Source: a virus
IMG/VR virus record: IMGVR_UViG_3300030333_007198
Span: 10,098-31,972 of that record
DNA length: 21,875 bases
Reading direction: 5' to 3' (one strand)
Part shown: positions 111-18,273 of the stretch, in pieces
Layout: every line of letters begins with the position of its first letter
Numbering within the stretch: the stretch's first letter is position 1
The notes under the pieces: generated by a model
Databases searched by the model: none
The model's input: the letters and a program-made list of their open reading frames with translations, nothing else
What the model was told of the DNA's origin: nothing
Program-made: the position numbers and the translations under genes

Positions 111-3100
111 TGGGTAAAAAAGACCCTAGAATACCAAGAGCGCCAATATCTGATGAGGCAGGCGTTTACATTTCTGGATCAGGATTATTTAGCGCCGTTA
201 GTGAAATTATCGTCGCAGACTTAATTTCAGAGGGGGAAATAGAAGGTTTAGTTAGCGGCGAATATGTTTTTGAAGGGAAGGAAGGCGCGATAGGCTACAC
301 TACTGGCCAATTTGTACATTATACCGCTTTGGACTCTAGCGGCAATTGCTCCAAAGATTTAGGATTTCTCAGATCTGTTTATTGGAACGAAGTTCCTATA
401 GTGGACAAGGATGGATTTTATAATTTTGCAGAAGTTAATTTAAACTGGAATAAAGGCTTACCTCAAGGCGAAATGCCTGCGCTAAGCTCTAATTTACCCA
501 ATGAAGAAAACTCAAAAGGTAATACAGATTTTGAATTAAATGTTTTTAGAAACATTGGAGAAAGATTATTTGGCCCACAAATAGACTTGTCAAAACCAGA
601 GCTAACTCCCGGCTACAAAAGAAGCCAAATAACAGGAACTCCTAACAATGATTATGGTAAAGTTTTCGGCAAAGATAGTTTCGGCAGATTAAGTGATAAC
701 CCATCTAATCCTCCTACCCTACTAGGAGAAATTGATAGAAATGCAAAAATATATACTGTTCTAAATAAAGAATGTGTGGCGGTACAGGTAAATTTAAGAA
801 TTCCTAGACTCCTTGAAACTATAGTCGATGACCCTTTCGACAATGTCAACGTGCAACGAGCGGGCAAAAGAAGGCAGAGCTTTTTCGACAAAAAAGCCAA
901 ACATAAAGATGCTCAGCTAACATTCGGTAACGGAGACATAAGAGCTAGAAAAATTAGAGTACAGATATATACTAGGCCAATATACGACACAAGAAATATA
1001 ACTACGACTTCTAATATTGCTAATAGAGATCAGCTAGAGCAGGACTTGTATGTTCCTTGGAAGCCTGTGCCTGATATAGACCACACTATCTTTGGAAAAA
1101 TAGAAGAGCCTTACTTAAAAACGTTAGAAATAAATTTTAAACGTGGTGTTTGGAAAAACCAATTTCCAAGAGACAGCAAAAGATACAAATTCTTTCAAGG
1201 GTGGGAGATAAAAATCGTCAGACTTACTCCCGATTCTGTTCAAAGTTATTTAAAAAATCAGTCTTTTGTAGACTCTTTGGTTGAGATATACGACTCTGTA
1301 GTGAAATATCCTTACTGCGCTATGGTATACTCTAAATTCAGCGCAGAGTTCTTTAGTAGAATACCCTCTAGAGCCTACGAAACAAATCTTATAAAAGTTC
1401 AAATTCCAAATACCTATGACCCTATAATGAGGACTTATACCGAGCCTGATGGTTATTGGGACGGATGCTTCAAACCTTTTAAAGCTTGGACTAATAATCC
1501 AGCTTGGTGTTTTTATGATTTAATTTCAAACAATAGATATGGATTAGGAGAGTATATAGATGCCAGCGCCCTTGATAAATGGTCGTTGTATGAAATAGCT
1601 AAATATTGCGACGTCTTAGTCCCTGATGGGAGGGGAGGCCTCGAACCTAGGTTCACTCTAAATCACATAATTGTATCCAGAGAAGAGGCGTTTAAAGTTG
1701 TTAATGATTTAGCATCTGCCTTTAGAGCTTTAGTTTATTTTGCTAATGGCAGCATATATGTTTCTCAGGATAGACCTAAGCAAATAATTTATTTGTTTAA
1801 TAACTCAAACGTCGTAGATGGAGCGTTTTCTTATTCGTCTTCTTCAAAAAAAGCTAGGCACACTGTAGCTATAGTAAGGTATAATGATAAAAATAATTTG
1901 TATCAGCCAGCTATCTGTTATACAGAAGACCAGCTTGGGATACAAAGATACGGAATTAGAGAAATAGAAACGAGCGCAATAGGATGTACTAGTGAAGGAC
2001 AAGCAAAAAGATTTGGAGAATGGATATTAAAGAGCGAATTGCTGCAAACTGAAACTATTAATTTTACGGCGGGAACGGAAGGAGCTTATATTAGGCCGGG
2101 GGATGTCGTAGGAGTTTACGATCAATTTAGAAGCGATAGAAAATTGGCGGGCAGAACCGTAAAGGTACAAGAAGAAACTTCTGGCTTCGCCCCTTCTGGT
2201 GCATTTGACAATTACGAAAGAACCAACGAATTAGGAGAATTTCCTATAACAGGCAATGGCATTATAATTGATCAACCATTAAACTTTACCCCTGATAGAG
2301 AATACAAACTTTCTATTTTAACTCCAACTAATTACCTTAACCCTGTTCAAATAACTGGCTCTGACTGTGTTGAGACTATACAAACAACCACAGAAGAAAA
2401 AGACTCTTTCGTGACCAAAGAAGTTATGGTCAAAGTTAGCTCGGAAGAAGTTACTGAAGCTATACAATTTAATAAACTAAATCCGGGAGCGGGCAAATTT
2501 TTAAACGATCCTATAAGAGTTAGCGACGACAGGAAACAACTATCTTTCTATGATGGCACAGGAGACGGGGGAAATGCCTCGACTTTTACAATTACTTCAG
2601 GTAATGCAAGGTTTAGCTCTGACGGCAAAAGTATTATAGGAACAGGTCAAGTAACTATAAAATATGTTTGGGATGACGATGCTTTTAATGTCGGTCGTAA
2701 AGCTTTGGAGTCAATTACTATAAAAAACGTAACTTGGATACAAACAGACAGTGAAACGGGAACCGATCTAGGGATAACCTTAGTCCTGAGCGAAACAACC
2801 TCTAATTTATTTCCAGAGACCACTGAAATAATAGAACCTTTGGACGGCGACTCTACTGATGACAGCATTTTTACTACAGAGAGAACCTTTGACGTCACAA
2901 GTGAAAAAGCTCAATACTCTTTTAGTTTAGATAGCTACCTGCAAAACTCAACAAATAGTTCAGCGAGTCAACAGGCAGGATTTCCAAAGAGAGTAGTTAT
3001 TGAAGATGGAGACGGAAACGTGTTAGCTCAGTCTAAATATATAGGAGCTAAGTCTATAACCGCTCTTCAAATGGGCGGAGTTAGAGCCAGAGACTATAAT

Positions 3101-6100
3101 ACGCTTCAACAAGAAAAATCTAACTACGCATTTGTTCACGGGCAAAAAGTTTTTCTCCCGAAAGCCAAGTATCTTTTTTCTAGCAATAGAAGAAATGGAG
3201 ACTTATTTAATTGCTTAGATCATTACAGCACTGACTCTGGCGTATCGGCAGCCACTAAAACTTTAGCTTTAGAAGAAATAGCTTATTTAGATTTGCAAGA
3301 AACTCCTTCTAGTTACCAGTCTGAAGATGTTCAAGATGATGGGTCTTTAGAAAACTTTAATAAAATATCAAAAAACTTAGAATTAGTGGACAAAAAAAGA
3401 GCTATATCCTTGAACTTTGAGAAGCCAAAAGATGTGACCACTTTAAAGATAAAAGTAATTCACCCAATTACTGCATTTGCTGCAAGTGATGAGCTAGCAT
3501 CTTCATTTTCAGCTAATCCAGACACTCCTTTTGGTGTTCCGGGTTATTACACGGCTCCAGCCGATCGACCAAGTACCTATAAAGATAGATTTAGATTTGT
3601 ACATCTAAAAAAGACTCATGTTTACGAGACTGTAACAGAAAAAGTTACGGAAACAAAAGTCACAGAAACTATTTCAAATAATTCAACTAATACAGACAAA
3701 TCATTGACTTCGGCTGACTATCCCGAAATTAGAAAAAGTCAGGTGCAAACTGTATATTTCAGCGGTTTTCAAGCAATACCTTTCACTGGTAATTATAATT
3801 CTGATTTTTCCGTAGGAGGCAGTGGAATTTTAACTAAAATATTATTAGACCGCCCAACACAATTAGCTCAAGGTAAAACTAATTATTTAAATTTTACTGA
3901 TTATTGCATTACTGGATATGATAATTCTTCTGTAGTAGGAGATTTAATGAAGGGCGGGTCCACAGGCGCTTACAGCTCGACTTATTCTAATGTGAACGGG
4001 TCTAATTTAGTATGGACTATTGAGCCGAGGTACAAAGACAAGACTGTCAATAGAAATTATACAATGGACCCTGAACTTGCTTCTGGGGAAATGTCTACCT
4101 ACAAAGTAATTAATATAGAAGAAGAAGACCATAAGTATAAGATTTCTGCGTTGGAATCTAATAATGCCGTATATAGCCAAGACTGGTCCCTAGTTGGTTA
4201 CGGAGGGGTGCCCGGCGGACCGGCAGAAAATATTAGAGTGGACGAACAAGACACTGGAGGTGATAGCAAAACTCCAAGCAAAAACACTCCGGACTTTGAG
4301 TATAATCCAAGTGACGAAGGCGCTTGTTGTGTCTCTATAGGAAATATTAAAACTTGTTATAGTAACTTAAAAAGATCTGAATGCGATGAGCTAAAAGGAG
4401 AGTTCTTTAAAGACGAAAGTTGTGTTGATATAAAAAACAGAGGAGAATGTACTAGCGACGAAGAGGTTACTGAACCAGATCCGGATCCTACTCCTGACGC
4501 TCAAGAAAGATTTATGAGCCTTCAGTATAAGATTGCTTTAGATATGTCTGATTTCAGTCCATCTCAAGGATTAGAAGACAATATCGCCCAATACTATAAG
4601 ATAAAACTCTTAAAAGACTCTGATGTATTTGGAGAAGCTACTGATCAGGCTTTAGAATATTATCAGTCATTAGAAGGAATGCCGTCTATAGCTTCGTATG
4701 AGGATAAAACTGATACGTATGGAGAGTTCTATCTAAAAACAGAAAAATTGTTTTTCCCTAACACATCTGATGCACTTGCAGGAATTAACTGCATGGGCCT
4801 TATCGACGACTATTGTGAATATTCAGAAGATTATATAAAATCAAAAGGATTTCATGTTGTAGAGAAGGTTATGCCGGTTGTCTCTGATAATATAAGTTGG
4901 GACAAAACAACCACCTGCAATGACCCTAAAGAGAATACTCAGATAGCTCATTTTTATAACAAGGAATATTCTGCCGCGAATATTAAATCCGGTAAAATAT
5001 ACTGGGTTGCTCCTCCAAATGAAAAATACAAAGTCTTGATACAACATTCTTTGTATACTTTTCCTGAATTTTTGAGAGATGACGATGGGAAACCTATTTC
5101 TATAGAAGAAAAGCATCGCGCTACAAAAGACATAAGAGACATAGCTTTTGAGAATCTTACCAACAACACAACTTCTCTTGAAGACGAGACGATAAAAGCG
5201 TACAAAGAAGGCTGTTTATGTGATGCTGACAATAGCCAAAAACCATTTGCTGATATAAACTTAGATTATATAGATGGAATAGTAGATAAATCTATATCAA
5301 CTAAAAAAATTGTCAAAAGTTATGCTGATTTCGGGAAATTAAATTTTTGCGATAGAACTAACTATGAGACTTTTGATTTTACTATCTTTCCAAAAACTAC
5401 ATTTAAAAGTGAAGTACAATACAAAAATGTCTTGGAAAAAGGAGAAGATAATCTGAGGGAGTATATATATCCGGGTCAATACGCTGTATTTACAGTTACT
5501 GTCTCGCCAGAATTTGATTTAGATACGGGCGGCGACAGACTAGACTGTCACGACCAAGAAGGATATAGATTTACTTTTGCTTTTAATTTAAGAGACGAGC
5601 CTAGCGTTACAAACTCTACAACCTGCAATCTTACGCCAATATTTAGCGCGGACGACCCTAGTGACTCAAATGGATTTACAACTTCGAATGCCCCTAAGCT
5701 GTTCGACACTCCGAAAAATATACAATCTCAATTTTTTGTAGAAAACGTAGATGTAGAAAAAGGAATATCCGCAAGCTCTTATATCCCAGTTCAGTACCCC
5801 GGGAAAATTTATGTAACTCAAGATGAAAATGGAGCTTCGGTATCTGATAATAGAACAGAGTGTTTGTATGTTGGAGGCTTTAGTAACTTAGATGATGACA
5901 AAAAATATGAGATAAAAGATACCACGCCTCATCAAAATCAAAACGCTAGAGGGATAGACACAAACCCAGATGGGTCGTCTAAACTTAACCCGAAATTTAC
6001 ATTTGGGTCAAATATGACAGCAACTTCCGAAGGTCTAACTATGTCTTCTAGCTATTTGGCGGCAAGTGAATGTCTTGAGACTAACTTTATTGAAAAATCC

Positions 6101-6298
6101 GATGGGACTGTAGAAAAAAATATTCACATACTTTTAGGCCCGTCTTTTCGTCATACACAAATAGCAGACAATTCAAGCAGTCTATTCTTTGACGGTAATA
6201 TAGAAACGGATTTTAGATCAGATGGACCCGATGGTGAACCTCCGGTGAAAAAGACGATAGCGAAAACGCCTATACACGAACTTTTTGCCCGTGATTAA
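110..6298 (+). CDS. Lambda J-like tail tip attachment / central hub protein, greatly enlarged
   Basis: This 2062-residue protein is the central tail-tip protein that closes the tail tube and normally contacts the host receptor. The N terminus has the J-family motif SEGEIEGL (residues 40-47). The conserved hub follows: YWDGCFKP (about 449-456), AWCFYDLISNNRYGLG (about 466-481), DKWSLYEIAKYC, VPDGRGGLEPR, and GCTSEGQAKRFGEWILKSEL (from 625) with PGDVVGVYD (to about 672). These match lambda J closely by eye. The last hub strand, YKISALE, appears only at 1343-1349, so about 570 residues are inserted relative to lambda J. A six-cysteine module (1406-1447) and an acidic Pro-rich linker then lead to about 600 unrecognised residues that probably replace the host-recognition part. 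The start is supported by AAAGGA about 9 bases upstream and by TAATG overlap with the previous gene. J-like identity is firm; receptor function of the C terminus is inferred. Confidence 0.93.
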   Translation: MGKKDPRIPRAPISDEAGVYISGSGLFSAVSEIIVADLISEGEIEGLVSGEYVFEGKEGAIGYTTGQFVHYTALDSSGNCSKDLGFLRSVYWNEVPIVDKDGFYNFAEVNLNWNKGLPQGEMPALSSNLPNEENSKGNTDFELNVFRNIGERLFGPQIDLSKPELTPGYKRSQITGTPNNDYGKVFGKDSFGRLSDNPSNPPTLLGEIDRNAKIYTVLNKECVAVQVNLRIPRLLETIVDDPFDNVNVQRAGKRRQSFFDKKAKHKDAQLTFGNGDIRARKIRVQIYTRPIYDTRNITTTSNIANRDQLEQDLYVPWKPVPDIDHTIFGKIEEPYLKTLEINFKRGVWKNQFPRDSKRYKFFQGWEIKIVRLTPDSVQSYLKNQSFVDSLVEIYDSVVKYPYCAMVYSKFSAEFFSRIPSRAYETNLIKVQIPNTYDPIMRTYTEPDGYWDGCFKPFKAWTNNPAWCFYDLISNNRYGLGEYIDASALDKWSLYEIAKYCDVLVPDGRGGLEPRFTLNHIIVSREEAFKVVNDLASAFRALVYFANGSIYVSQDRPKQIIYLFNNSNVVDGAFSYSSSSKKARHTVAIVRYNDKNNLYQPAICYTEDQLGIQRYGIREIETSAIGCTSEGQAKRFGEWILKSELLQTETINFTAGTEGAYIRPGDVVGVYDQFRSDRKLAGRTVKVQEETSGFAPSGAFDNYERTNELGEFPITGNGIIIDQPLNFTPDREYKLSILTPTNYLNPVQITGSDCVETIQTTTEEKDSFVTKEVMVKVSSEEVTEAIQFNKLNPGAGKFLNDPIRVSDDRKQLSFYDGTGDGGNASTFTITSGNARFSSDGKSIIGTGQVTIKYVWDDDAFNVGRKALESITIKNVTWIQTDSETGTDLGITLVLSETTSNLFPETTEIIEPLDGDSTDDSIFTTERTFDVTSEKAQYSFSLDSYLQNSTNSSASQQAGFPKRVVIEDGDGNVLAQSKYIGAKSITALQMGGVRARDYNTLQQEKSNYAFVHGQKVFLPKAKYLFSSNRRNGDLFNCLDHYSTDSGVSAATKTLALEEIAYLDLQETPSSYQSEDVQDDGSLENFNKISKNLELVDKKRAISLNFEKPKDVTTLKIKVIHPITAFAASDELASSFSANPDTPFGVPGYYTAPADRPSTYKDRFRFVHLKKTHVYETVTEKVTETKVTETISNNSTNTDKSLTSADYPEIRKSQVQTVYFSGFQAIPFTGNYNSDFSVGGSGILTKILLDRPTQLAQGKTNYLNFTDYCITGYDNSSVVGDLMKGGSTGAYSSTYSNVNGSNLVWTIEPRYKDKTVNRNYTMDPELASGEMSTYKVINIEEEDHKYKISALESNNAVYSQDWSLVGYGGVPGGPAENIRVDEQDTGGDSKTPSKNTPDFEYNPSDEGACCVSIGNIKTCYSNLKRSECDELKGEFFKDESCVDIKNRGECTSDEEVTEPDPDPTPDAQERFMSLQYKIALDMSDFSPSQGLEDNIAQYYKIKLLKDSDVFGEATDQALEYYQSLEGMPSIASYEDKTDTYGEFYLKTEKLFFPNTSDALAGINCMGLIDDYCEYSEDYIKSKGFHVVEKVMPVVSDNISWDKTTTCNDPKENTQIAHFYNKEYSAANIKSGKIYWVAPPNEKYKVLIQHSLYTFPEFLRDDDGKPISIEEKHRATKDIRDIAFENLTNNTTSLEDETIKAYKEGCLCDADNSQKPFADINLDYIDGIVDKSISTKKIVKSYADFGKLNFCDRTNYETFDFTIFPKTTFKSEVQYKNVLEKGEDNLREYIYPGQYAVFTVTVSPEFDLDTGGDRLDCHDQEGYRFTFAFNLRDEPSVTNSTTCNLTPIFSADDPSDSNGFTTSNAPKLFDTPKNIQSQFFVENVDVEKGISASSYIPVQYPGKIYVTQDENGASVSDNRTECLYVGGFSNLDDDKKYEIKDTTPHQNQNARGIDTNPDGSSKLNPKFTFGSNMTATSEGLTMSSSYLAASECLETNFIEKSDGTVEKNIHILLGPSFRHTQIADNSSSLFFDGNIETDFRSDGPDGEPPVKKTIAKTPIHELFARD
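4319..4450 (+). other. Six-cysteine module within the J-like protein
   Basis: Residues 1404-1447 of the J-like protein begin GACC and contain six cysteines (1406, 1407, 1416, 1425, 1438, 1447). They are followed by an acidic, Pro-rich linker (EEVTEPDPDPTPDAQE). The layout resembles the small GACC-type Cys-rich modules I recall from secreted bacterial proteins and some phage tail proteins. It marks the boundary between the conserved hub and the unrecognised C-terminal third. Disulfide bonding or metal binding is possible, and the sequence alone does not decide between them. Confidence 0.55.
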
Positions 6299-8358: not shown

Positions 8359-9207
8359 ATGAAATTAATTAATTTCTGTGCGTCTATAAATAAAAATTCT
8401 GATGAGCTAATATGCCAATCAGACAAAGACTTTCTTAGCATAGACGAATCTTTCACTGTCAGGATAGAAGATGAGTTTTACGGTATTAGAAAAATAGATA
8501 AAAAAGAAGTCTGGTTTGATTTTAAAAATTCTGAAATGGATGGGTCTAGATATTTAATTATAAATGAACTAGAAGAGAACCAATTCTATCCTAGAGATTA
8601 TGTAGAAATTTATTTCAGTGAATATCAAGCGCAAAAATATGGCATGGTGATAGATGGCGGGAAAGGATATGAGAAAGGGCAAACTATAGTATTTGCGGGT
8701 TATGGAGGTGTGTGCAACTTTAAGATAGCTAAAGTCGGAGATCAAGGAGAAGTTCTGTCGTTGTCTATAGAAAATGTCGATAATTTCCTTTGCTCGGGAC
8801 ATAGGGAAATTTTGGTAGAAGGAGGAGGCGGCGAAGGCTTAAAAGTAATTGTAGAATTCTTAGATACTAAGAAAAAAACTATGGTGACTAAAGAAATCAG
8901 AAGCACTTTTTTCTCCAAGGGGAACAGCTATTTAGACTTTGAGTATCCAATCGAACAAGACATTGATAATGGTCAAATAAAAATTTACAGATCATCAATT
9001 ACTTTAGACAAAAAGAATTTAAATGAGCTGCCTAGTCAAGTAGTTTGTATCGCGGAAAAAATAAACTATACGCCAAAACTCAAAATACCTATTGTAGAAA
9101 GAGGCACCTTGAACGCCTACAGAGTATACAATGAAGGCGCGACTATTATAGAAGATAAATTTATGGAGCTCGAAAAAAGAATTATAGATTTAGAATCTAA
9201 ACTCTAA
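8359..9207 (+). CDS. Probable virion protein with Gly-rich beta module and C-terminal coiled coil (282 aa)
   Basis: This is the last gene of the plus-strand operon, 12 bases after the previous stop. Residues about 94-170 (GGKGYEKGQTIVFAGYGG, then GEVLSLSIENVDNF and EGGGGEGLKV) follow the GxGYxxGD / GxV..v.v / GGGGxGA pattern of beta-stranded modules seen repeatedly in phage fibre and structural proteins. The last 22 residues (KFMELEKRIIDLESKL) form a short amphipathic heptad helix, consistent with oligomerisation. I infer a tail-tip or fibre-associated structural protein. The exact function is not recognisable. Its TAA stop (9205-9207) overlaps the stop of the convergent tape measure gene. 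No clear ribosome binding site precedes the ATG. Confidence 0.6.
   Translation: MKLINFCASINKNSDELICQSDKDFLSIDESFTVRIEDEFYGIRKIDKKEVWFDFKNSEMDGSRYLIINELEENQFYPRDYVEIYFSEYQAQKYGMVIDGGKGYEKGQTIVFAGYGGVCNFKIAKVGDQGEVLSLSIENVDNFLCSGHREILVEGGGGEGLKVIVEFLDTKKKTMVTKEIRSTFFSKGNSYLDFEYPIEQDIDNGQIKIYRSSITLDKKNLNELPSQVVCIAEKINYTPKLKIPIVERGTLNAYRVYNEGATIIEDKFMELEKRIIDLESKL
9204..9207. other. Overlapping stop codons of the convergent tail operons
   Basis: The four bases CTAA hold both stops: TAA on the plus strand at 9205-9207, and TAG on the minus strand read from 9206 to 9204. The two tail operons therefore meet with no intergenic DNA. No GC-rich hairpin with a T-run is visible at the junction, so each transcript probably runs into the coding region of the other. 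Confidence 0.9.
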
Positions 9208-12200
9208 GGTCTCCTGCCTCCAGCGTAAGTAGCGTTGTCTCTTAGTAACCCTCCGGGTCTTTGCTGTCTTTCTATTTCTTTTAGGACAACACCTCGGATA
9301 GCTTCGCCAAGTTTCTTTTGCTTTTCGACTTCTTTTTCGTCTCCTCTTTCGGAGTTTTCGCCTTGGCCAGATTGACTCTCGCTTTGCACTTGGGTTTTGC
9401 CACCTTTATCTATATTTATTGCTAGGTTTAGATTATTAGTAGTAACGCTGCTGCCACCAGCTCCTCCTTGTCCTCCTACTAAACCTCCCATATTATAACC
9501 GGGCATTCTGCCGCGATTCAATTCAGCCATGAACCCTGTCCCGTATTTAGCGGTAGTCTGTGGGCTCATTATATATTCGCCGCCCATTACTAACGCAGGA
9601 GAGCCACCTCTTGCCCCTTTTTCTACTGGCTTGCCTTCCCATGCTTTACCCCCCATGGGATTTGATTCTGTTCTTGAGGGGCCGCCGCCAAACGTCTCTC
9701 CTTCGGCCTTAGAATGCAATGCTCCTGCACCTATTGTCATTACAGCGGAGATATAGGCTTGGTTTCTCCTAGATCTTTTCTGATCTTTAACTGCATTTAT
9801 AGCCAGCCGTCTCCTTTCCATTTCTTGGAGTCTATATTGTTTATAGCTGGCTAAAGTTCTTTCTCTTTCAAACATTCTATTAGTCGCAGGGTCATCACTA
9901 AATATTCCAGCGCTAGATAATCTTCTGCTCATCGCAAAGCCACCACCGGTAGGCCTTGAAGTATCCTCTCCGCTATACATAAAGTCTTTTGCGAGTGAGA
10001 CTCTAGCCTGACCGCCAGAAGCATAACTATTTATAGCGTTGAGTGTTCCGTAACCTATTTTTTGCGCTGAGCTCTTTTTAATTACATATTCGCCGCCCTG
10101 CATGAAAGTCATAACGTCGTCTCTGACTCCCGAACCCCCTGTGACAACTCCTCCTTGGTTGTACCCTCTTGGAATATATCCCCCCTGACTTTTCTTGGCT
10201 GAATTTGCCAAAGACTCAAAGAAGCCAAACAAAGCGTCTACGCCCATATCTATGCCTCTGTCAGCCATTTTCGCGGCTAAGTTTGCGAATATGTCCCTCA
10301 TAGACTCTTTGAAGTCTTTCGCTCCAGAGGCTATATCTTTTATAGCACTTTTTGTAGAACCTTTAATATCTTCTCCGAGCTCTACCATGGCACTATCAAA
10401 AGCTAGAGCCGCGTCATCTCTGTCGTACATAAATGAATCAAAGAAACCTCCTGCTCCTTGAAACCCTTGCCCGCCTCTTATTCTGGACTCTCTAAGCGAT
10501 TTAGCCGCCGCCGCTTTTTGCGCGCCAGTAACTCCGCCGAAATCTCTATCTATAACCCTCAGACCCCTAACTGTAGTTGCCGCCATTGTTATCGCGTCTT
10601 TTCTGCCTTGTAAAAAATTACCCTGCTGAAATTGTTTTCTGGCCTCCAGTTCTTCTTTTTGAGCTTTTATGTTAGCTTCTGTTACTGACCTTTCAAATTC
10701 TTTTAATTGCGTTAGGTTATTTATAGACGCGTTATTCTTTTCTAGGTCTTCTACATACTTTAATAAAGCAGTTCTATATTTAGTCAAGGCTCCAGACTGC
10801 TCTGCTGTTAATTGTGTTGTTCCTCCAAGTTGATTAAGTCTCTGTACAGACTTTCTTAGATCTGAGGCGATACCTTCTTCAGTAAATAGCCCAGCGTCGA
10901 AACCCTCTCTCATAAGAGATATCCTACTTAATTCGTCTTGTATAGGATTAAAATTCTTACCCTCTACAGTTCCGCCTCCAGAACCTGCGCCCATGCCAAA
11001 CTGATTCTGCAAAGAAGTTAGCATGCTTCCGCCAAGTTCGTTGAGTCTCTTTCCTGTTAATATCTCTCTAGTTTGATTAAGCTGTAGCTCCTCTAAGCCA
11101 TATTTGTTATCTAAGAAACCTCCTAGATTTGCAGATTGGAAATTCAGGGCAGCCATATCACCGCCTCTTATACCTGCTAGGCTAGCGCCCGATTTAAAAT
11201 CTATAGCAGCTAAGGCCTGCTTGTTGGCGGTGCTAGCTCTCAGCATTTTCAACTGATTATCTAAAGCGACTCTACCTTTAATTAAATCAATATTGCTATC
11301 TAGAATTCCATCAAGCATTTCTTTGTTAGCTTTAGTAAAGTCTTTTCGTTGTTTTACTTGTATTTGTGTATTTTTAACTATATCTTCACCAGCTTTATTA
11401 CTTGCAAGAGCCTCTCTAGCTATATCTACTAATTGGTTTTTTAATTTTACAGGCACATTTTCTCCAAGCAGGGCTTCGCCAAACCCTGCAGCAAGTTTTC
11501 CGTCTTTCACTAAAGATTGCACGACTTTTAGAAAGGAATCCTTGAAAAAGTCTGCTCCCATGAAGCTTGGTGCTTTTGCTGCGGTAGTAGCATCCATTCC
11601 CATAACAGATTTGAAACCCTCTGCTATAATTTGCTGACGAGTCTGTCCAGCTATTCCTTTGCCTTGAATGTCTGTCAAAGAAGTGAATAGGGTATTAAAG
11701 CTATCTGCGTATGTTTTTACAAACTTTTCATTGCCTCCGAAGTCTTTTAGTTTTGCATCTAAATCAGTAAGCATGCCGTGCTGAGCAGCCACATCCAGAG
11801 ACCCATAATGTTGAATCAGAGAGGGTGCTTGGCGTTCGTGCGCCTCAAAGTCTGCCTGCGTCGGTAAAGCGGCGGTCGCTGTCATCGCTCTTATATTTTT
11901 AAAAGCTGTAGCACTCTGTTTTCTGCCTTCTGCCAACATTACAGCTTCTTGCAAAGCCCCCATACCCTCTTGTTTGCCTTGAAGCTGTTCTATAAGTATA
12001 CGTCTTATAGTGTCAGGGGATCCAATACCTTTTAATGAATCTTTTTTACCTGCTCTCACAGCCTGTACATACAAAGCCTCTAGCTGCACCCTTCTCTGAT
12101 TTAATTGCTCCTCGGTTATAGTCCCATCTTTTACCAACTCCCTTAGATTCATCGCATCTTGAGCCATGGCGCTCATTGCATTTTTGAAGTCGCCAGTCTC

Positions 12201-15200
12201 GCCTAAAGTTCTTTGCAACTCTTCTTCTAGTTCTTGTAATGCTTTTTCTGTTGGATCTGCTTTACCCATGCCGTAACCAAGAGCGGCTCCTCCTGCGGCC
12301 AGTCCAGCGGTCGCCAGAAGGCTCAGGCCGCCTGTAAAAGGAGCTAATGCTGCTCCAGCCATCATACCCACACTGCCCCCAGTTATACCACCCATCAAGC
12401 CACCTTCGTCCATACCTGTCTTTTTAGCTATAGCCGGAGCCATCATATAGCCTCCCATAGACACTGCCATTCCTAGAGGCCCACCTGCACGACCAAGCAT
12501 CCTAGACAGTCTGCCTGTAGCTTTCGTGCTTTTCTTCGTTTCTTCAGTGTCTTTTTTCGTAGCTTCAGTACCTTTTTTCGTTTCCTCCTTTAGGCCAGCA
12601 CTTTCCGGCGATTCTATTATAATTTTACCGCTTGATGATATCAAGTGGGAGGGCATACCTTTATCGGCCATAAACTTTAGAGTCTTCGCGTCGGCTCCAC
12701 CTATTCCTTTTGCGTCTTCGAAATCTACAAAGTTAGGTACTCCATGAGTCTTTGGATTTATACCCATGCTTCTCGACCTACTGATACCTTGCCCTAAGCC
12801 ACCGGGTTCATGAATTGTATTATATACTCCTAAACCCCTCGGATTACCCGGACTTCTCAAAGCTTGATTTGCTCCCACGCGAATCGCAGACGCGGGAACA
12901 CCGGCCGCTCTTTCTCTTTTAATAGCGTCTGTTAAAGGAGAAAAGTTCGGAACTAACCCTAAAGCTCTACCTCTACCTCTGCCTCCGCCGACTGTAGGTA
13001 AAAGTTTTTCTGCTCTCTCTGATATTTCCTCTTTTTTTAATCTGTCCATAAAAGGAAGCGCTCCACTTTCTTTGAACAACGGACCGCTAACAGCATCTGC
13101 CGCTATTAATATACCTTGGTTATAAGACTTTTTAATTATACTTCTTATAGCGTCTGAGGTGGCAGTTCTTTTTGCGTCGGCCCTTTGAAGCATTGGGTCA
13201 AACCTCAGATGCCTTTTGAAATTTTTAGTAGGAGATCCAGACTCTTCGAAATCAAACGGCGCGTTGTCTGTGCCTCCTGTAGCCTGCATGAACCTAGTTG
13301 GGCTATGTAAAGCTAGCTGAATAGACTTTTCGAACAGTTCTCCTTCTGTAGATTTCGGGAGAAGTCTTTTCCCCATCATTTTTTCTTTGATTTTATCTAC
13401 TCTAGGACCTTGATTGCCTAATACTCCCCCTATAGCTTGCGCTCCTATTCTTGCTAAAGGATCTATCAGCTCATTGTTTATAGCTTGACTAAAATTAAAT
13501 GCGTCTTCTCCCTGAGCTTGCAGACTCCTTCTCAGCACCTCGAGAGAAGAAACTTGAATATTTTTGAACCCTATTACTTCTTTGCTTGCTCTAAGGGCCG
13601 CAGCTTCTCCTTCTGTTTTCTTGACTCTATCTATATAAGGTTTAAATACTTTTAGCTGCCCTATAGATGTACTTGTTGTGCCATTTTTCCTACTCGCACC
13701 TGTTAGGGACACCACTCCAACTTGGCCCTTGGTGTCATAATAGTCTTTAAATTTGTCTACTTTCCCGCCAGCGGGTTTTTTAACTCTTGGGTCTACTATG
13801 AAGCCTTCATTGACTAAGTTTTGTATTTGCTGATTGCTAACATCAACCTTTTGCCCCTTTTCAACCGGTCCGATACTCGCTGACGCTCTACCACGCTTAA
13901 GCATGGTTACAGTGTAATTAAAGTTAGGAACAAAGCCGCCAGCTGCGTAAGGATCGAAGCCGTGTGCAGCGCCGAAGGCCTTTTTGTAATTAGACCCGGC
14001 TGCGCTGCTACGCGGTGGCATTATAGCAGGTTGAACCATACCCGGGAATTGCTTGACGGTCTCTGCGCCATTGTACATAACGGAGCCTTCTCCGGGTATA
14101 CTCATGGTCTTTATGCCTCCTGCCCTATAACCTCCTGCTGCGGCCGCGGCTCTCTCGGCATTAGGATCGGCAAAGTTGGGAACGAAGCCGTGTGCTCTCC
14201 CGCCTCTTCTCATCGGCCCAAAAGTCATCATACTCGCAGATATAGACCTTGAAGTCGCTGCTAGCTTGGTTGCTTCTACGTTAGAAGCTCTCATAGCAGC
14301 TAGCATGTCTTTTGCTGCGGCTGCGGCTGATAGTTCTCCTCTTTCTATCTGTTTAATTATAGCAGGCTGTCTAGTCAGCTCTGCAGTGACGGCCGCTTCT
14401 ATATCTTTTCTCTGCAGTATACTTTTATTTAATTCAAAAATACCTGCTATAGCTTTACCTGTAAATTTACCAAAGTCTATAAACAGCTTACCGATTCCAG
14501 CAGTGACCAACACTAGTCCCGGCCCGCCTATAAAACTACCTATGCCTTTTAATATATCTTTGCCTATACCTTTGCCAAATTCTTCAAATCTACCGCCCTC
14601 TGAAAAAGCTCCTATAGCAGAGTTTACCAAACCCAAAACATTTTCTATAGCTGGTTTTAAAGTTGCTCCTCCTATAGCTGATCCAGCTTTAGTAAGATTT
14701 ACAAGAGTCTTATTGACTAAAGCATCAAGAGTTTGGTTTAACTGTTCGTTTTTTCTGTAAGCCTCGTCTGTGGCTGTGGCCGACTCTCTGACCGCTCTAC
14801 TGTACACGCCATATTTACTGGAAAGATCGCCTAAAGCTGCGCGTAAAATATTAACTTGGAAAACACCAGCGACACTTTCAGCTATCTGCCCCTGTTGTAT
14901 CTGACTCAGGTCTTGGAACTTGGCCGCCAAATTCTCCAAAACTTTAGTCGCTGGCAGCATGGCTCCCTGCATGTCTCTGGTGGCAACTCCAATTTGAGCC
15001 AGTTTTTTCTGTACGTCGGTTCTCTGTATTCTAGTAAATATAGTTTTGAAGGCGTTACCAATAACAGCGCCGCCTCGAGCAGTTCTTTGTTGTACTGCGG
15101 TAGTTATAGCGAGGAGCTCGTCCATGCTAACACCTGCGTCAACAGCAGATGAACCAACACGAGAAATAGCTTTTGCAAGATCGTCTGAGCTAACAGCAAA

Positions 15201-15827
15201 TGCCTGATCGACCTTTGCCATTTTGTTCACGACCTGAGCTGAATTAATTCCAGCTTTAGCAAATGAGTTTACTGCTGCGGTTAGAGAAGATACAGCTTCC
15301 TCTGCGCCCATACCTGTCAAACGCGACAGGATCATCGCATCGTTTAATCTTTTTAAAGTCTTTTCCGTACCAAGACCCTGACGAGCCAACTCGGTTGCTC
15401 CTGCGGCTATAGTCTTAAAAGATTGTCCTGTTTGAGCAGCTACCTTAAATAGTTGATCTCCAAACTGTTGCAAGCTTGCTGCGCTAGCTCCCAAAACGAC
15501 ATTAATATCAGTTAAAGATTTTTCTACCGCTACTGTAGCTTTTACAGTTTCTTTTAGAGCTTTTTGAACTTGGAATATGAGTCCTGCTGAAGCGCCAAAC
15601 GCAATAACACGAGCGTTTGCAGCGGCCATTGATTTTTCAAACTCGCCAGCATTTGCTGTAGCTGCGGATAGGCCTTCACCTAAAGGCTTAAGGGACTTAC
15701 CTCCTCTTCCGCCTATAGACGCAACCCTCTTCTCAACACCAGCTAAAGACCTATCTAACTTTTTTAGATCTTTTTCAGCCTTTGCCGTGATTATCTCTAA
15801 TTCTGCCCGTAACTTTTCCGTAGCCAC
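9204..15827 (-). CDS. Phage tail tape measure protein (2207 aa) with embedded modules
   Basis: The tape measure sets tail length, fills the tube lumen during assembly and is expected to leave with the DNA. An N-terminal coiled coil (about 1-60) is followed by an Ala-rich TP901-type tape measure domain (about 65-400; KSLTDINVVLGAS, GMGAEEAVSSLTAAVNSFAKAG). A hydrophobic Gly segment lies near 420-460. Four VPNF motifs (residues 549, 633, 959, 1030) bound unusual modules, one nuclease-like. Three TKKxTEx heptads (1082-1104) and a Gly/Ala/Met-rich, probably membrane-active segment (about 1112-1190) follow, then long helical ruler sequence. The C terminus has the typical end domain (DFKESMRDIFANLAAK) and two GGEY motifs (1911 and 2082). 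The start is GTG (15825-15827); a TAA two codons upstream excludes a longer form, and no Shine-Dalgarno sequence is evident. The usual ~0.15 nm per residue gives a tail near 260-330 nm, depending on whether the modules count. Confidence 0.95.
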   Translation of the reverse strand: MATEKLRAELEIITAKAEKDLKKLDRSLAGVEKRVASIGGRGGKSLKPLGEGLSAATANAGEFEKSMAAANARVIAFGASAGLIFQVQKALKETVKATVAVEKSLTDINVVLGASAASLQQFGDQLFKVAAQTGQSFKTIAAGATELARQGLGTEKTLKRLNDAMILSRLTGMGAEEAVSSLTAAVNSFAKAGINSAQVVNKMAKVDQAFAVSSDDLAKAISRVGSSAVDAGVSMDELLAITTAVQQRTARGGAVIGNAFKTIFTRIQRTDVQKKLAQIGVATRDMQGAMLPATKVLENLAAKFQDLSQIQQGQIAESVAGVFQVNILRAALGDLSSKYGVYSRAVRESATATDEAYRKNEQLNQTLDALVNKTLVNLTKAGSAIGGATLKPAIENVLGLVNSAIGAFSEGGRFEEFGKGIGKDILKGIGSFIGGPGLVLVTAGIGKLFIDFGKFTGKAIAGIFELNKSILQRKDIEAAVTAELTRQPAIIKQIERGELSAAAAAKDMLAAMRASNVEATKLAATSRSISASMMTFGPMRRGGRAHGFVPNFADPNAERAAAAAGGYRAGGIKTMSIPGEGSVMYNGAETVKQFPGMVQPAIMPPRSSAAGSNYKKAFGAAHGFDPYAAGGFVPNFNYTVTMLKRGRASASIGPVEKGQKVDVSNQQIQNLVNEGFIVDPRVKKPAGGKVDKFKDYYDTKGQVGVVSLTGASRKNGTTSTSIGQLKVFKPYIDRVKKTEGEAAALRASKEVIGFKNIQVSSLEVLRRSLQAQGEDAFNFSQAINNELIDPLARIGAQAIGGVLGNQGPRVDKIKEKMMGKRLLPKSTEGELFEKSIQLALHSPTRFMQATGGTDNAPFDFEESGSPTKNFKRHLRFDPMLQRADAKRTATSDAIRSIIKKSYNQGILIAADAVSGPLFKESGALPFMDRLKKEEISERAEKLLPTVGGGRGRGRALGLVPNFSPLTDAIKRERAAGVPASAIRVGANQALRSPGNPRGLGVYNTIHEPGGLGQGISRSRSMGINPKTHGVPNFVDFEDAKGIGGADAKTLKFMADKGMPSHLISSSGKIIIESPESAGLKEETKKGTEATKKDTEETKKSTKATGRLSRMLGRAGGPLGMAVSMGGYMMAPAIAKKTGMDEGGLMGGITGGSVGMMAGAALAPFTGGLSLLATAGLAAGGAALGYGMGKADPTEKALQELEEELQRTLGETGDFKNAMSAMAQDAMNLRELVKDGTITEEQLNQRRVQLEALYVQAVRAGKKDSLKGIGSPDTIRRILIEQLQGKQEGMGALQEAVMLAEGRKQSATAFKNIRAMTATAALPTQADFEAHERQAPSLIQHYGSLDVAAQHGMLTDLDAKLKDFGGNEKFVKTYADSFNTLFTSLTDIQGKGIAGQTRQQIIAEGFKSVMGMDATTAAKAPSFMGADFFKDSFLKVVQSLVKDGKLAAGFGEALLGENVPVKLKNQLVDIAREALASNKAGEDIVKNTQIQVKQRKDFTKANKEMLDGILDSNIDLIKGRVALDNQLKMLRASTANKQALAAIDFKSGASLAGIRGGDMAALNFQSANLGGFLDNKYGLEELQLNQTREILTGKRLNELGGSMLTSLQNQFGMGAGSGGGTVEGKNFNPIQDELSRISLMREGFDAGLFTEEGIASDLRKSVQRLNQLGGTTQLTAEQSGALTKYRTALLKYVEDLEKNNASINNLTQLKEFERSVTEANIKAQKEELEARKQFQQGNFLQGRKDAITMAATTVRGLRVIDRDFGGVTGAQKAAAAKSLRESRIRGGQGFQGAGGFFDSFMYDRDDAALAFDSAMVELGEDIKGSTKSAIKDIASGAKDFKESMRDIFANLAAKMADRGIDMGVDALFGFFESLANSAKKSQGGYIPRGYNQGGVVTGGSGVRDDVMTFMQGGEYVIKKSSAQKIGYGTLNAINSYASGGQARVSLAKDFMYSGEDTSRPTGGGFAMSRRLSSAGIFSDDPATNRMFERERTLASYKQYRLQEMERRRLAINAVKDQKRSRRNQAYISAVMTIGAGALHSKAEGETFGGGPSRTESNPMGGKAWEGKPVEKGARGGSPALVMGGEYIMSPQTTAKYGTGFMAELNRGRMPGYNMGGLVGGQGGAGGSSVTTNNLNLAINIDKGGKTQVQSESQSGQGENSERGDEKEVEKQKKLGEAIRGVVLKEIERQQRPGGLLRDNATYAGGRRP
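12729..14183 (-). repeat. Four dispersed VPNF motifs delimiting modules in the tape measure
   Basis: Four copies of a G-x-VPNF or G-VPNF motif occur at HGFVPNFAD (V549, bases 14172-14183), GGFVPNFNY (V633, 13920-13931), LGLVPNFSP (V959, 12942-12953) and HGVPNFVDF (V1030, 12729-12740). They separate three modules: 553-632 (contains FPGMVQPAIMPP and HGFDPYAAGG), 637-958 (nuclease-like) and 963-1029 (contains AGVPASAIRVG and GLGVYNTIHEPGGLGQG). The codons differ between copies, so the repeat is kept at protein level and is not a recent DNA duplication. A role as protease sites or as packing anchors inside the tube is only inference. Confidence 0.85.
13089..13364 (-). other. Candidate PD-(D/E)XK-like nuclease core inside the tape measure
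   Basis: Residues about 822-913 of the tape measure contain a helix with GELFEKSIQLAL (E830, E833). A short segment with APFDFEES (D859) follows, then RADAKRTATS (D884-x-K886) and a helix SDAIRSIIKKSYN. The order helix-Glu, Asp on a strand, D-x-K on a strand, then helix matches the core layout of PD-(D/E)XK nucleases. This is a by-eye pattern match; fold and activity are not shown. A purely structural domain with chance spacing of acidic residues is the main alternative. Confidence 0.45.
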
Positions 15828-16903: not shown

Positions 16904-17689
16904 TTACTTTTTCTTAGCTTCTTTTTTGGGCTTTTCTTCTGTTTTCTCCTCTTCTTCGTCAAGCTCTGTGACATTCTTTTTAAGCTCGTCGAATTGTTCT
17001 TTGCTATTAGGTCTAGCGAAGTACCATAAACTTATATTGTAGGTAAACTCTGCCACTACAGAAGTAAGGAAAGGGTCTTGGCCGTCATCAATTTCGTCAT
17101 ACTTCTCTAAACGGTCCTCAAGTTCTCCTTTGTCAAAAAATGGAGTTTCATCATCATTATAAGACATGAATAAAACCCACCAAAGAATAGCTTTATTTCT
17201 AGCACGAGATTCTGCGGTATCTTCAAAGATAGACTCTTCGGCCATATTATATCTTCTCATTGTTTCAAGATATGGCTTAGCTTTATCTTCTAGTTCTTTA
17301 TGCTTTTTCTTTTGATTGTTCGTCCTTTTCTTTTCGTCGATTACATTGATTTCTTCTTGTTGAGCATATATCTCTCGTAGCTCTTTAGTAATTTCGTCAA
17401 AAGCTTTTTGTTGAAGGTCATTCATTATACCGCCGTCATTAGTATAACGTTTATGAAGCAGCGGCCGAGTTATCATTCCGGCGCGAATAGCTTTTCCTAA
17501 CTCTACTCCATAATACAGTTCGCCTTCGTCCAGCATTGCGCGGGTAGGCCTTCTCAGGAAGAATTTCTTTTCGACTTCCTCCTCTACTGTTTTCTTTGCG
17601 GTGATTTCCTCCCCGTCTTTATTTACGTCAGGGACCTCTTTTTCTACCGTTTCCTTTTTCTTTAAAACGAATTCGTATAACCTTTTCAT
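16904..17689 (-). CDS. Probable tail assembly / chaperone-slot protein (261 aa), highly charged
   Basis: The start overlaps the previous gene by four bases (ATGA), indicating translational coupling. The protein has a charged N-terminal beta part and then FFLRRPTRAMLDEGELYYG with AIRAGMITRPLLHKRYTNDGG (about 44-87). Next comes a Lys/Glu-rich helical region (about 95-145) and an aromatic segment (AILWWVLFMSYNDDETPFF). The Glu/Lys tail is low-complexity and ends KKEAKKK. The RRP...Y...G...LL.K.Y..GG pattern resembles a family of unknown function that I associate with marine phage tail modules. The place between tube protein and tape measure suggests an assembly chaperone. There is no usable G-GT style frameshift: the frames after the slip-prone A-runs stop before the next gene. 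Function is inferred. Confidence 0.6.
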   Translation of the reverse strand: MKRLYEFVLKKKETVEKEVPDVNKDGEEITAKKTVEEEVEKKFFLRRPTRAMLDEGELYYGVELGKAIRAGMITRPLLHKRYTNDGGIMNDLQQKAFDEITKELREIYAQQEEINVIDEKKRTNNQKKKHKELEDKAKPYLETMRRYNMAEESIFEDTAESRARNKAILWWVLFMSYNDDETPFFDKGELEDRLEKYDEIDDGQDPFLTSVVAEFTYNISLWYFARPNSKEQFDELKKNVTELDEEEEKTEEKPKKEAKKK

Positions 17690-17922
17690 TTCTTTATATT
17701 CTTATGGAATTCAAGATATTTGTCAAAATATTCTTCAAGCTCACGAATAGTATCGTTTCCTTGGTCAAGGATGCGTTTCCGTATTCTTTTATAACTTTCT
17801 TCTGGGATTTGAATTCCCTCTGAGCTGAGGTCTTCTAAAATGAAGAAGAATGATTTATATAAACCTGTAATTTTTCTCTTTAATTGAAACGAGAAAAAGT
17901 TTTCGACAATATCTTTTTCCAT
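17686..17922 (-). CDS. Small helical protein of the tail operon (78 aa)
   Basis: This protein is short, Lys/Glu-rich and predicted mostly helical, with an aromatic N-terminal half (ENFFSFQLKRK, LYKSFFFILEDL) and a charged C-terminal helix (RELEEYFDKYLEFHKNIKK). AAAGG seven bases before the ATG supports the start, and the TGA overlaps the next ATG by four bases. It is the first gene after an internal terminator. No family is recognised. A small assembly factor for the tail is plausible from context. Confidence 0.65.
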   Translation of the reverse strand: MEKDIVENFFSFQLKRKITGLYKSFFFILEDLSSEGIQIPEESYKRIRKRILDQGNDTIRELEEYFDKYLEFHKNIKK

Positions 17923-18060: not shown

Positions 18061-18273
18061 TTAGGCATCTCCTGCTCTCTCTATCCCTAAATCTGGGCCA
18101 TCTTCTGAAGGTTCTGGAGCTGGCTCCGGCATTGGCTCGGGAGCGGGAGGTTCCGGTTCGGGCTCTGGTTCAGGAGCGGGTGGCTCCGGCATTGGCTCTG
18201 GTGCCGGGGCGGGGGTTTCCCCCGCCATCTTAGCACCGTTTCTTCGTCTCCAATATTCTGCGTCTCTTTCCAT
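18061..18273 (-). CDS. Small Pro/Glu/Ala repeat protein (70 aa)
   Basis: After a charged start (MERDAEYWRRRNGAK) the middle of the protein is built of PAPEPMPEP and EPEP units with no hydrophobic core, so it is probably extended and disordered. It lies directly after the major tail gene, 26 bases downstream, with AAAGGA about 10 bases before the ATG. Placement before the terminator predicts high expression together with the tube protein. It is far richer in G+C than its neighbours, partly because Pro, Ala and Glu codons dominate. No family or function is recognised. Its reality rests on the ribosome binding site, its place in the operon and clean start and stop; a non-functional repeat is the alternative. 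Confidence 0.7.
   Translation of the reverse strand: MERDAEYWRRRNGAKMAGETPAPAPEPMPEPPAPEPEPEPEPPAPEPMPEPAPEPSEDGPDLGIERAGDA
18121..18198 (-). repeat. Direct repeat in the Pro/Glu-rich gene
   Basis: The same 18 bases occur at 18121-18138 and 18181-18198, exactly 60 bases apart and in frame, encoding the two PEPMPEP units. The spacing is a multiple of three, so copy-number change would lengthen or shorten the protein without a frameshift. Confidence 0.85.

Follow-up and report, generated by a model that had tools for sequence, protein, structure and literature searches.

Tail tape measure proteins (TMPs) are often viewed as rulers and channels. The locus described here raises the question of what a module with the residues of a nuclease active site would be doing inside such a protein. 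The window, by which we mean the whole 21,875-nucleotide stretch of DNA analysed, comes from a viral record of 33,072 bases, and an earlier note on it had recognised by eye a PD-(D/E)XK-like core within a TMP. What escaped that note is the main feature of the locus: the domain forms a cassette that phages exchange and that has VPNF motifs at its borders.

The tape measure protein and its cassette

The 2207-aa protein that houses the module is a TMP. In a Pfam scan of the whole protein its N-terminal part matched PF10145 (PhageMin_Tail, E 3.6e-30); it also matched several PHROG tape measure families, the best being phrog_4211 (tail tape measure, E 5.5e-52), and its gene lies in a tail gene cluster. 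The identification made in the earlier note is thereby borne out. Because a lambda J-like central tail fibre is also encoded there (window 113-6298), we regard the window as a siphophage tail region. The TMP gene and a convergent 282-aa gene (8359-9207, plus strand) overlap by four bases at their stops (window 9204/9207), and owing to this strand switch no co-oriented gene follows the TMP. Upstream of the TMP, between a 553-aa gene and a 78-aa ORF (17686-17922), sits a 70-aa ORF of Pro/Glu/Ala repeats (window 18061-18273, minus strand; PEPEPEPPAPEP...).

The TMP contains VPNF at residues 549-552 and 633-636, the two ends of an N-side linker, and at residues 959-962 and 1030-1033, the ends of a C-side linker; at 71-72% mean column identity, both linkers are much better conserved than the cassette that they enclose. 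On translation, residues 822-913 correspond exactly to 13089-13364, as the earlier note had placed them, and all four residues that it had singled out (E833, D859, D884 and K886) stand at those positions in the translated TMP. The features are:

9204..15827, minus strand: tail TMP, GTG start, 2207 aa; PF10145 and phrog_4211; adjoins the lambda J-like central tail fibre gene
13920..14183, minus strand: N-side linker, residues 549-636, first VPNF to second VPNF; 71% mean column identity in 12 divergent TMPs
13920..13931, minus strand: second VPNF, residues 633-636, upstream border of the cassette; DNA similarity to L002, L003, L005 and L113 ends here
12954..13919, minus strand: nuclease-like cassette, residues 637-958; no or weak DNA similarity among relatives whose flanks align; conserved motif; AF2 model m7c09c0c53474
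13089..13364, minus strand: active-site-like core of the earlier note, residues 822-913; holds E833, D859, D884, K886 and K900
13329..13331, minus strand: E833 codon, in GELFE, helix; E in 79/82 homologues
13251..13253, minus strand: D859 codon, in APFDFEE; D in 81/82 homologues
13176..13178, minus strand: D884 codon, opening the DxK, strand; of 82 homologues, 58 have D and 21 have E
13170..13172, minus strand: K886 codon, last residue of DxK; K in 80/82 homologues
13128..13130, minus strand: K900 codon, helix after DxK, absent from the earlier note; K in 78/82 homologues
12942..12953, minus strand: third VPNF, residues 959-962, downstream border of the cassette; DNA similarity resumes here for L002 and L003, and at most 20 bases before it for L005 and L113
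12729..12953, minus strand: C-side linker, residues 959-1033, third VPNF to fourth VPNF; 72% mean column identity in 19 TMPs; query for 188 IMG/VR relatives

Relatives and exchange of the cassette

Used directly as a query, the window cassette matched nothing in viral contigs, isolate phages or the PDB, and relatives were therefore reached solely through the TMP N-terminus and the linkers. The N-terminus led to 7 viral contigs, a cassette alignment (A1) to 24 loci, the C-side linker (A3) to 188 confirmed relatives in IMG/VR (best 80 of 188 kept) and the N-side linker (A5) to 204 confirmed relatives (best 80 of 204 kept); the A1, A3 and A5 sets overlap. All relatives are uncultured, and no match to either linker or to the cassette of relative L099 was found among isolate phages. 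Genome collections yielded 3 matching contigs, of which 2 belong to Flavobacteriales/Flavobacteriaceae MAGs. L113 (NZWA01000041.1), a contig of 77 kb that was binned into a Flavobacteriales genome, has a cassette and TMP closely related to those of L005, and its presence in that MAG is a possible host lead.

For 51 pairs of TMPs, identity exceeds 85% in both linkers but stays below 40% in the cassettes. At the DNA level, L105 and L112 share 90.5% identity up to the second VPNF and 95.7% from the third VPNF onward, with an unalignable cassette in between; L006 and L114 show 95.7%, 96.9% and 99.1% identity around unalignable cassettes; and over the ~11.7 kb aligned between L108 and L127 the cassette is the only break. 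Breakpoints between near-identical phages lie at or next to VPNF codons. Similarity between the window and L002, L003, L005 and L113 likewise stops at the second VPNF and returns within ~20 bases of the third, with one 300-base patch at 67% persisting within the cassette in the comparison with L002. The converse case is provided by L112 and L159, whose cassettes are 85% alike and whose backbones are 67% alike. What is seen is the horizontal swapping of one defined cassette and not fast divergence alone. Two phages that are near-identical elsewhere also differ in a second short variable segment immediately downstream of the fourth VPNF (L006:10582-10887 against L114:1730-2018).

The swap-like pairs and the DNA breakpoints thus display a variable module on a conserved carrier, one of the two hallmarks of polymorphic toxins; the other, a linked co-varying immunity gene, was not seen in L108/L127, the sole pair compared for it. 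The same observations could suit a selfish, allele-excluding cassette that, in an in-frame, homing-like manner, cuts competing TMP alleles in co-infected cells and replaces them while having no role in the injected cell. In its favour are the fixed slot, the rapid replacement of alleles among near-identical phages, the lack of a co-varying partner gene in L108/L127 and the existence of TMPs that lack the module, such as L051, a complete TMP (PF10145, E 5e-28) with the C-side linker and without the cassette. Yet L051 has lost the N-side linker along with the module; PF10145 was the sole above-cut-off match in the Pfam scan of the whole window TMP, which thus showed no HINT, HNH, LAGLIDADG, GIY-YIG or intein domain; and the staphylococcal nuclease and nucleotidyltransferase-related domains found in other VPNF-bounded segments (see below) do not fit homing. 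We therefore consider a selfish cassette improbable.

Conservation of the active-site-like residues

Conservation was assessed in 82 non-redundant cassettes picked by the N-side linker alone, with no motif selection. E833 is kept in 96% of these, D859 in 99%, D or E at 884 in 96%, K886 in 98% and K900 in 78/82. Position 884 is occupied almost exclusively by D (58 cassettes) or E (21 cassettes; 79/82 together), and this freedom to change from D to E is confined to it, as in (D/E)xK. The strict motif G-x-x-F-E ... D ... (D/E)-x-K is found in 69/82 cassettes, whereas 200 rounds of shuffling gave 0.14 on average and never more than 2, which puts the motif at ~500 times the shuffled expectation; of the 300-aa stretches taken upstream in the same proteins as a control, 1/79 contained it. 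E833, D859, K886 and K900 all fall within the six most conserved columns of the cassette. In the unfiltered alignment A2 (24 members) the invariant cassette residues are G829, F832, E833, K886 and K900, plus G957 beside the third VPNF, with D859 at 90% or more. Alignments A4 and A6 show like conservation; A4 is biased by the motif filter used to assemble it, and the claim therefore rests on the unfiltered sets, A2 and the 82 linker-selected cassettes.

The mean pairwise identity of cassettes between TMPs is ~27%, so residues that had been chosen before any alignment turn out to be among the most conserved positions of a highly divergent module. Related cassettes are under purifying selection (median dN/dS 0.27), and the ordered, conserved E ... 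D ... (D/E)xK series by which PD-(D/E)XK enzymes are recognised is present across the 82 homologues. It might be argued that a module lying inside a structural protein and matching no fold (see below) has no catalytic activity and serves the tape measure as a structural spacer. This we find scarcely credible, given four catalytic-type residues kept at 96-99% despite so low a mean identity, for an acid-acid-acid-lysine pattern would not persist in a spacer.

Fold and family membership

AF2 models of the window cassette (pLDDT 78.6, pTM 0.69) and of the L099 cassette (pLDDT 83.8, pTM 0.70) agree on the order of secondary structure: three or four strands come first, then helices, then the helix bearing the E; beyond it the D lies in a loop or at a very short strand, ahead of a short helix, the DxK strand and a helix with the conserved K. 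In the window model (m7c09c0c53474) the E lies in helix 189-204, DxK in strand 246-250 and K900 in helix 255-273. Both models thus place the E on a helix, as on alpha-1 of PD-(D/E)XK enzymes, and the (D/E)xK on a strand that is followed by a helix.

Neither model matched any PDB chain in Foldseek (best E 0.88 and 2.6), so that no superposable alpha-beta-beta-beta-alpha-beta core was found, and the window model had no match in the viral library either. Searches of Pfam, NCBIfam, PHROGs, PADLOC and PDB profiles gave no link to a known nuclease family. With the PD-(D/E)XK superfamily the cassette has in common the order of E (helix), D and (D/E)xK (strand) and the K conserved in the helix that follows; it differs in the three strands predicted upstream of the E-helix, which depart from the canonical order, and in a gap of ~25 residues with a short predicted helix between the D and DxK, where the superfamily has a tight hairpin. 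Two identities suggested by weaker matches were rejected: plant lectin, for which the PDB-profile matches had only a G-x-F-E repeat behind them, and Cas4, for which the weak PADLOC match (L018 residues 43-139) lay upstream of the motif.

The PD-(D/E)XK core proposed in the earlier note consequently divides in two. Its signature stands, in the order and conservation of the residues and in their placement on helix and strand: the helix that it had described after DxK is predicted at residues 891-909 (AF2), and the homologues, whose loss of D859, D884 and K886 it had named as a refutation, keep all three among their most conserved residues. The fold did not follow, since the profile search and structure prediction that it had called for over residues 637-958 matched no known PD-(D/E)XK fold or family and the predicted strand order departs from the canonical one. 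The fit of the active-site signature to PD-(D/E)XK is therefore supported, whereas a PD-(D/E)XK fold of the cassette is not established; the module may be a strongly rearranged member of the superfamily, a new fold, or a structure mis-modelled from ~50 sequences.

Other cargo in VPNF-bounded segments

VPNF-bounded segments elsewhere hold other enzyme domains. A staphylococcal nuclease domain is found in L060 (L060:4795-5412; PF00565, 24.9 bits against a cut-off of 21) and, with a weaker PF00565 score, in a TMP-type ORF of L193 (L193:7503-8123), whereas the L194 ORF at 4788 carries in residues 1062-1726 the HIGH-nucleotidyltransferase-associated domain PF16581 (33.3 bits against a cut-off of 26.7). 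The same L194 segment also has a P-loop-like GTAGIGKTT stretch. L070 has a ParB-like segment that scored below the cut-off, and an HD-like or tRNA-nucleotidyltransferase-like domain is present in L063, a VPNF-rich protein with its N-terminus cut off. Four of these proteins and their kin, L053, L060, L061 and L070, are TMPs by PF10145. Together with the PD-(D/E)XK-like module, the PF00565 domain of L060 and the PF16581 domain of L194 place diverse enzyme domains on a common carrier, as is seen in polyvalent proteins.

Further segments were noted by eye. The VPNF-rich proteins L058, L059 and L063 have ADP-ribosyltransferase-like segments (LTLYRGQ...TSFSTSETVA), the single one of which that was scanned had no Pfam match. 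HEYSH in L061 (residues 839-1087; HExxH-like) and ELTH in L053 (residues 914-1261) suggest, from the motifs, a putative metallopeptidase cargo in TMPs; neither segment had a Pfam match. Canonical-looking PD-(D/E)XK sequences were seen in L060 (VDFVRPGRLPIEAK) and L058 (VDFIGKGLMPIEGK). Profile-profile comparison of the main family with the canonical-looking types (L060/L058, L193 and L089) gave no significant match, and we therefore claim no homology between cassette types.

These segments bear on a further alternative, namely that the cassette is an exchanged, delivered effector of another fold and chemistry (a phosphodiesterase, a nucleotide-signal hydrolase or a nucleotidyl enzyme) whose residues merely resemble those of PD-(D/E)XK. 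The diversity of the enzymes in VPNF-bounded segments, among them the nucleotidyltransferase-related domain of L194 and the HD-like domain of L063, would accommodate it, as would the missing structural or profile link between the cassette and REase-fold proteins. The order and spacing of the conserved residues and the D/E freedom nevertheless agree with PD-(D/E)XK, and some VPNF-bounded segments are textbook-like PD-(D/E)XK by eye (that of L060 above) or a known nuclease (staphylococcal nuclease). An enzyme of another kind seems to us rather unlikely, if worth keeping in mind.

Proposed function and mechanism

On balance, we lean towards the cassette being a metal-dependent PD-(D/E)XK-like nuclease that is delivered with the TMP during DNA entry; its catalysis, its DNA substrate, its delivery and its benefit to the phage are what we infer. 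Against this reading stand the negative profile and Foldseek searches, the departure from the canonical strand order and the fact that no gene for immunity or self-protection was identified. A module with a putative E...D...(D/E)xK...K active site is set mid-way in a siphophage TMP, where the two conserved VPNF-ended linkers would hold it in a fixed slot, so that homologous recombination could exchange it and leave the ruler function undisturbed. During infection the TMP, which occupies the tail tube, exits before the DNA, and the virion would therefore most likely bring its copies of the nuclease to a new host's envelope or cytoplasm. There, at the onset of infection, they could cleave DNA of the host, of rival phages or of plasmids, or else neutralise a defence. 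Exchange and diversification suggest such an antagonistic target, be it host DNA, resident or competing elements, or defence.

Phages produce the TMP late, and the nuclease might act in the producing cell or during assembly, on host DNA at that late stage or at the tail on the trailing end of the genome, and not in the next host. A precedent exists in gp4 of T4-like phages, a virion-associated REase-fold DNase reported to be necessary for packaging (PMC7824862). Rapid exchange and extreme divergence would be unexpected for an assembly enzyme, however, and at least one TMP of the family (L051) has no module, which makes a role in the producing cell very improbable. Going by the TMP-borne enzymes already known (see below), the cassette is most likely carried along with the TMP and active at or within the new host.

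For the group as a whole, we tentatively put forward a broader proposal that we hold to be slightly less likely than not: in a large group of uncultured siphophages the TMP may act as a cartridge system whose VPNF linkers form a socket for recombined enzymes. Most of these would be nucleases of a new, fast-diversifying family, with enzymes of other kinds in some lineages, and the tail would inject them as a first weapon. Near-identical phages differ by a clean cassette within the TMP, and nearly all cassettes have the catalytic-type signature. If these are nucleases delivered with the TMP, the ruler may serve phages as a changeable injection cartridge, and the TMP slot would be a natural place to search for further injected enzymes.

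Comparison with known systems

There is precedent both for enzymes housed in TMPs and for nucleases borne on TMP-like effectors. Virions of the siphophage P23-45 contain an enzymatically active RNA polymerase fused to the TMP (PMC10770324), and so share with the cassette the setting of an enzyme within a siphophage TMP; that polymerase is N-terminal and belongs to a small phage group, and the available portion of the report describes no cassette exchange. Tme, a TMP-related endonuclease effector of the contractile injection system (CIS) of Streptomyces davawensis, likewise bears a nuclease domain on a TMP-related protein (PMC11126660), but as a CIS effector of bacteria it carries an EndA-type (DRGH) nuclease at its C-terminus, whereas the PD-(D/E)XK-like module of the window is exchangeable and lies in the centre of a phage TMP. 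TMP-like CIS effectors of the Sle1 type also combine a TMP-like scaffold with exchangeable functional domains (PMC13277306); these are actinobacterial CIS effectors rather than phage virion proteins, and their variable functional domain is C-terminal.

Polyvalent proteins of phages and plasmids are multi-domain proteins thought to be injected with DNA, with mixtures of nuclease, ADP-ribosyltransferase, peptidase and nucleotide-enzyme domains (PMC5512222). The word 'tape' is absent from the text of that paper, and the carrier here is a TMP with single cassettes bounded by VPNF linkers. The conserved carrier and the very divergent, swapped enzymatic module recall polymorphic toxins, from which the cassette differs in being internal and in the co-varying immunity gene not seen in L108/L127. 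A survey of phage protein mosaicism did not confirm recent domain shuffling in TMPs (PMC10684548), and no phage paper using the term VPNF was among the matches listed, which is weak evidence given the partial coverage of the literature. An exchanged nuclease-like cassette that is widespread in phage TMPs and bounded by VPNF thus appears to be a further form of the TMP-borne enzymes already known, and it is the exchange of the cassette, more than the presence of an enzyme, that is the surprising part.
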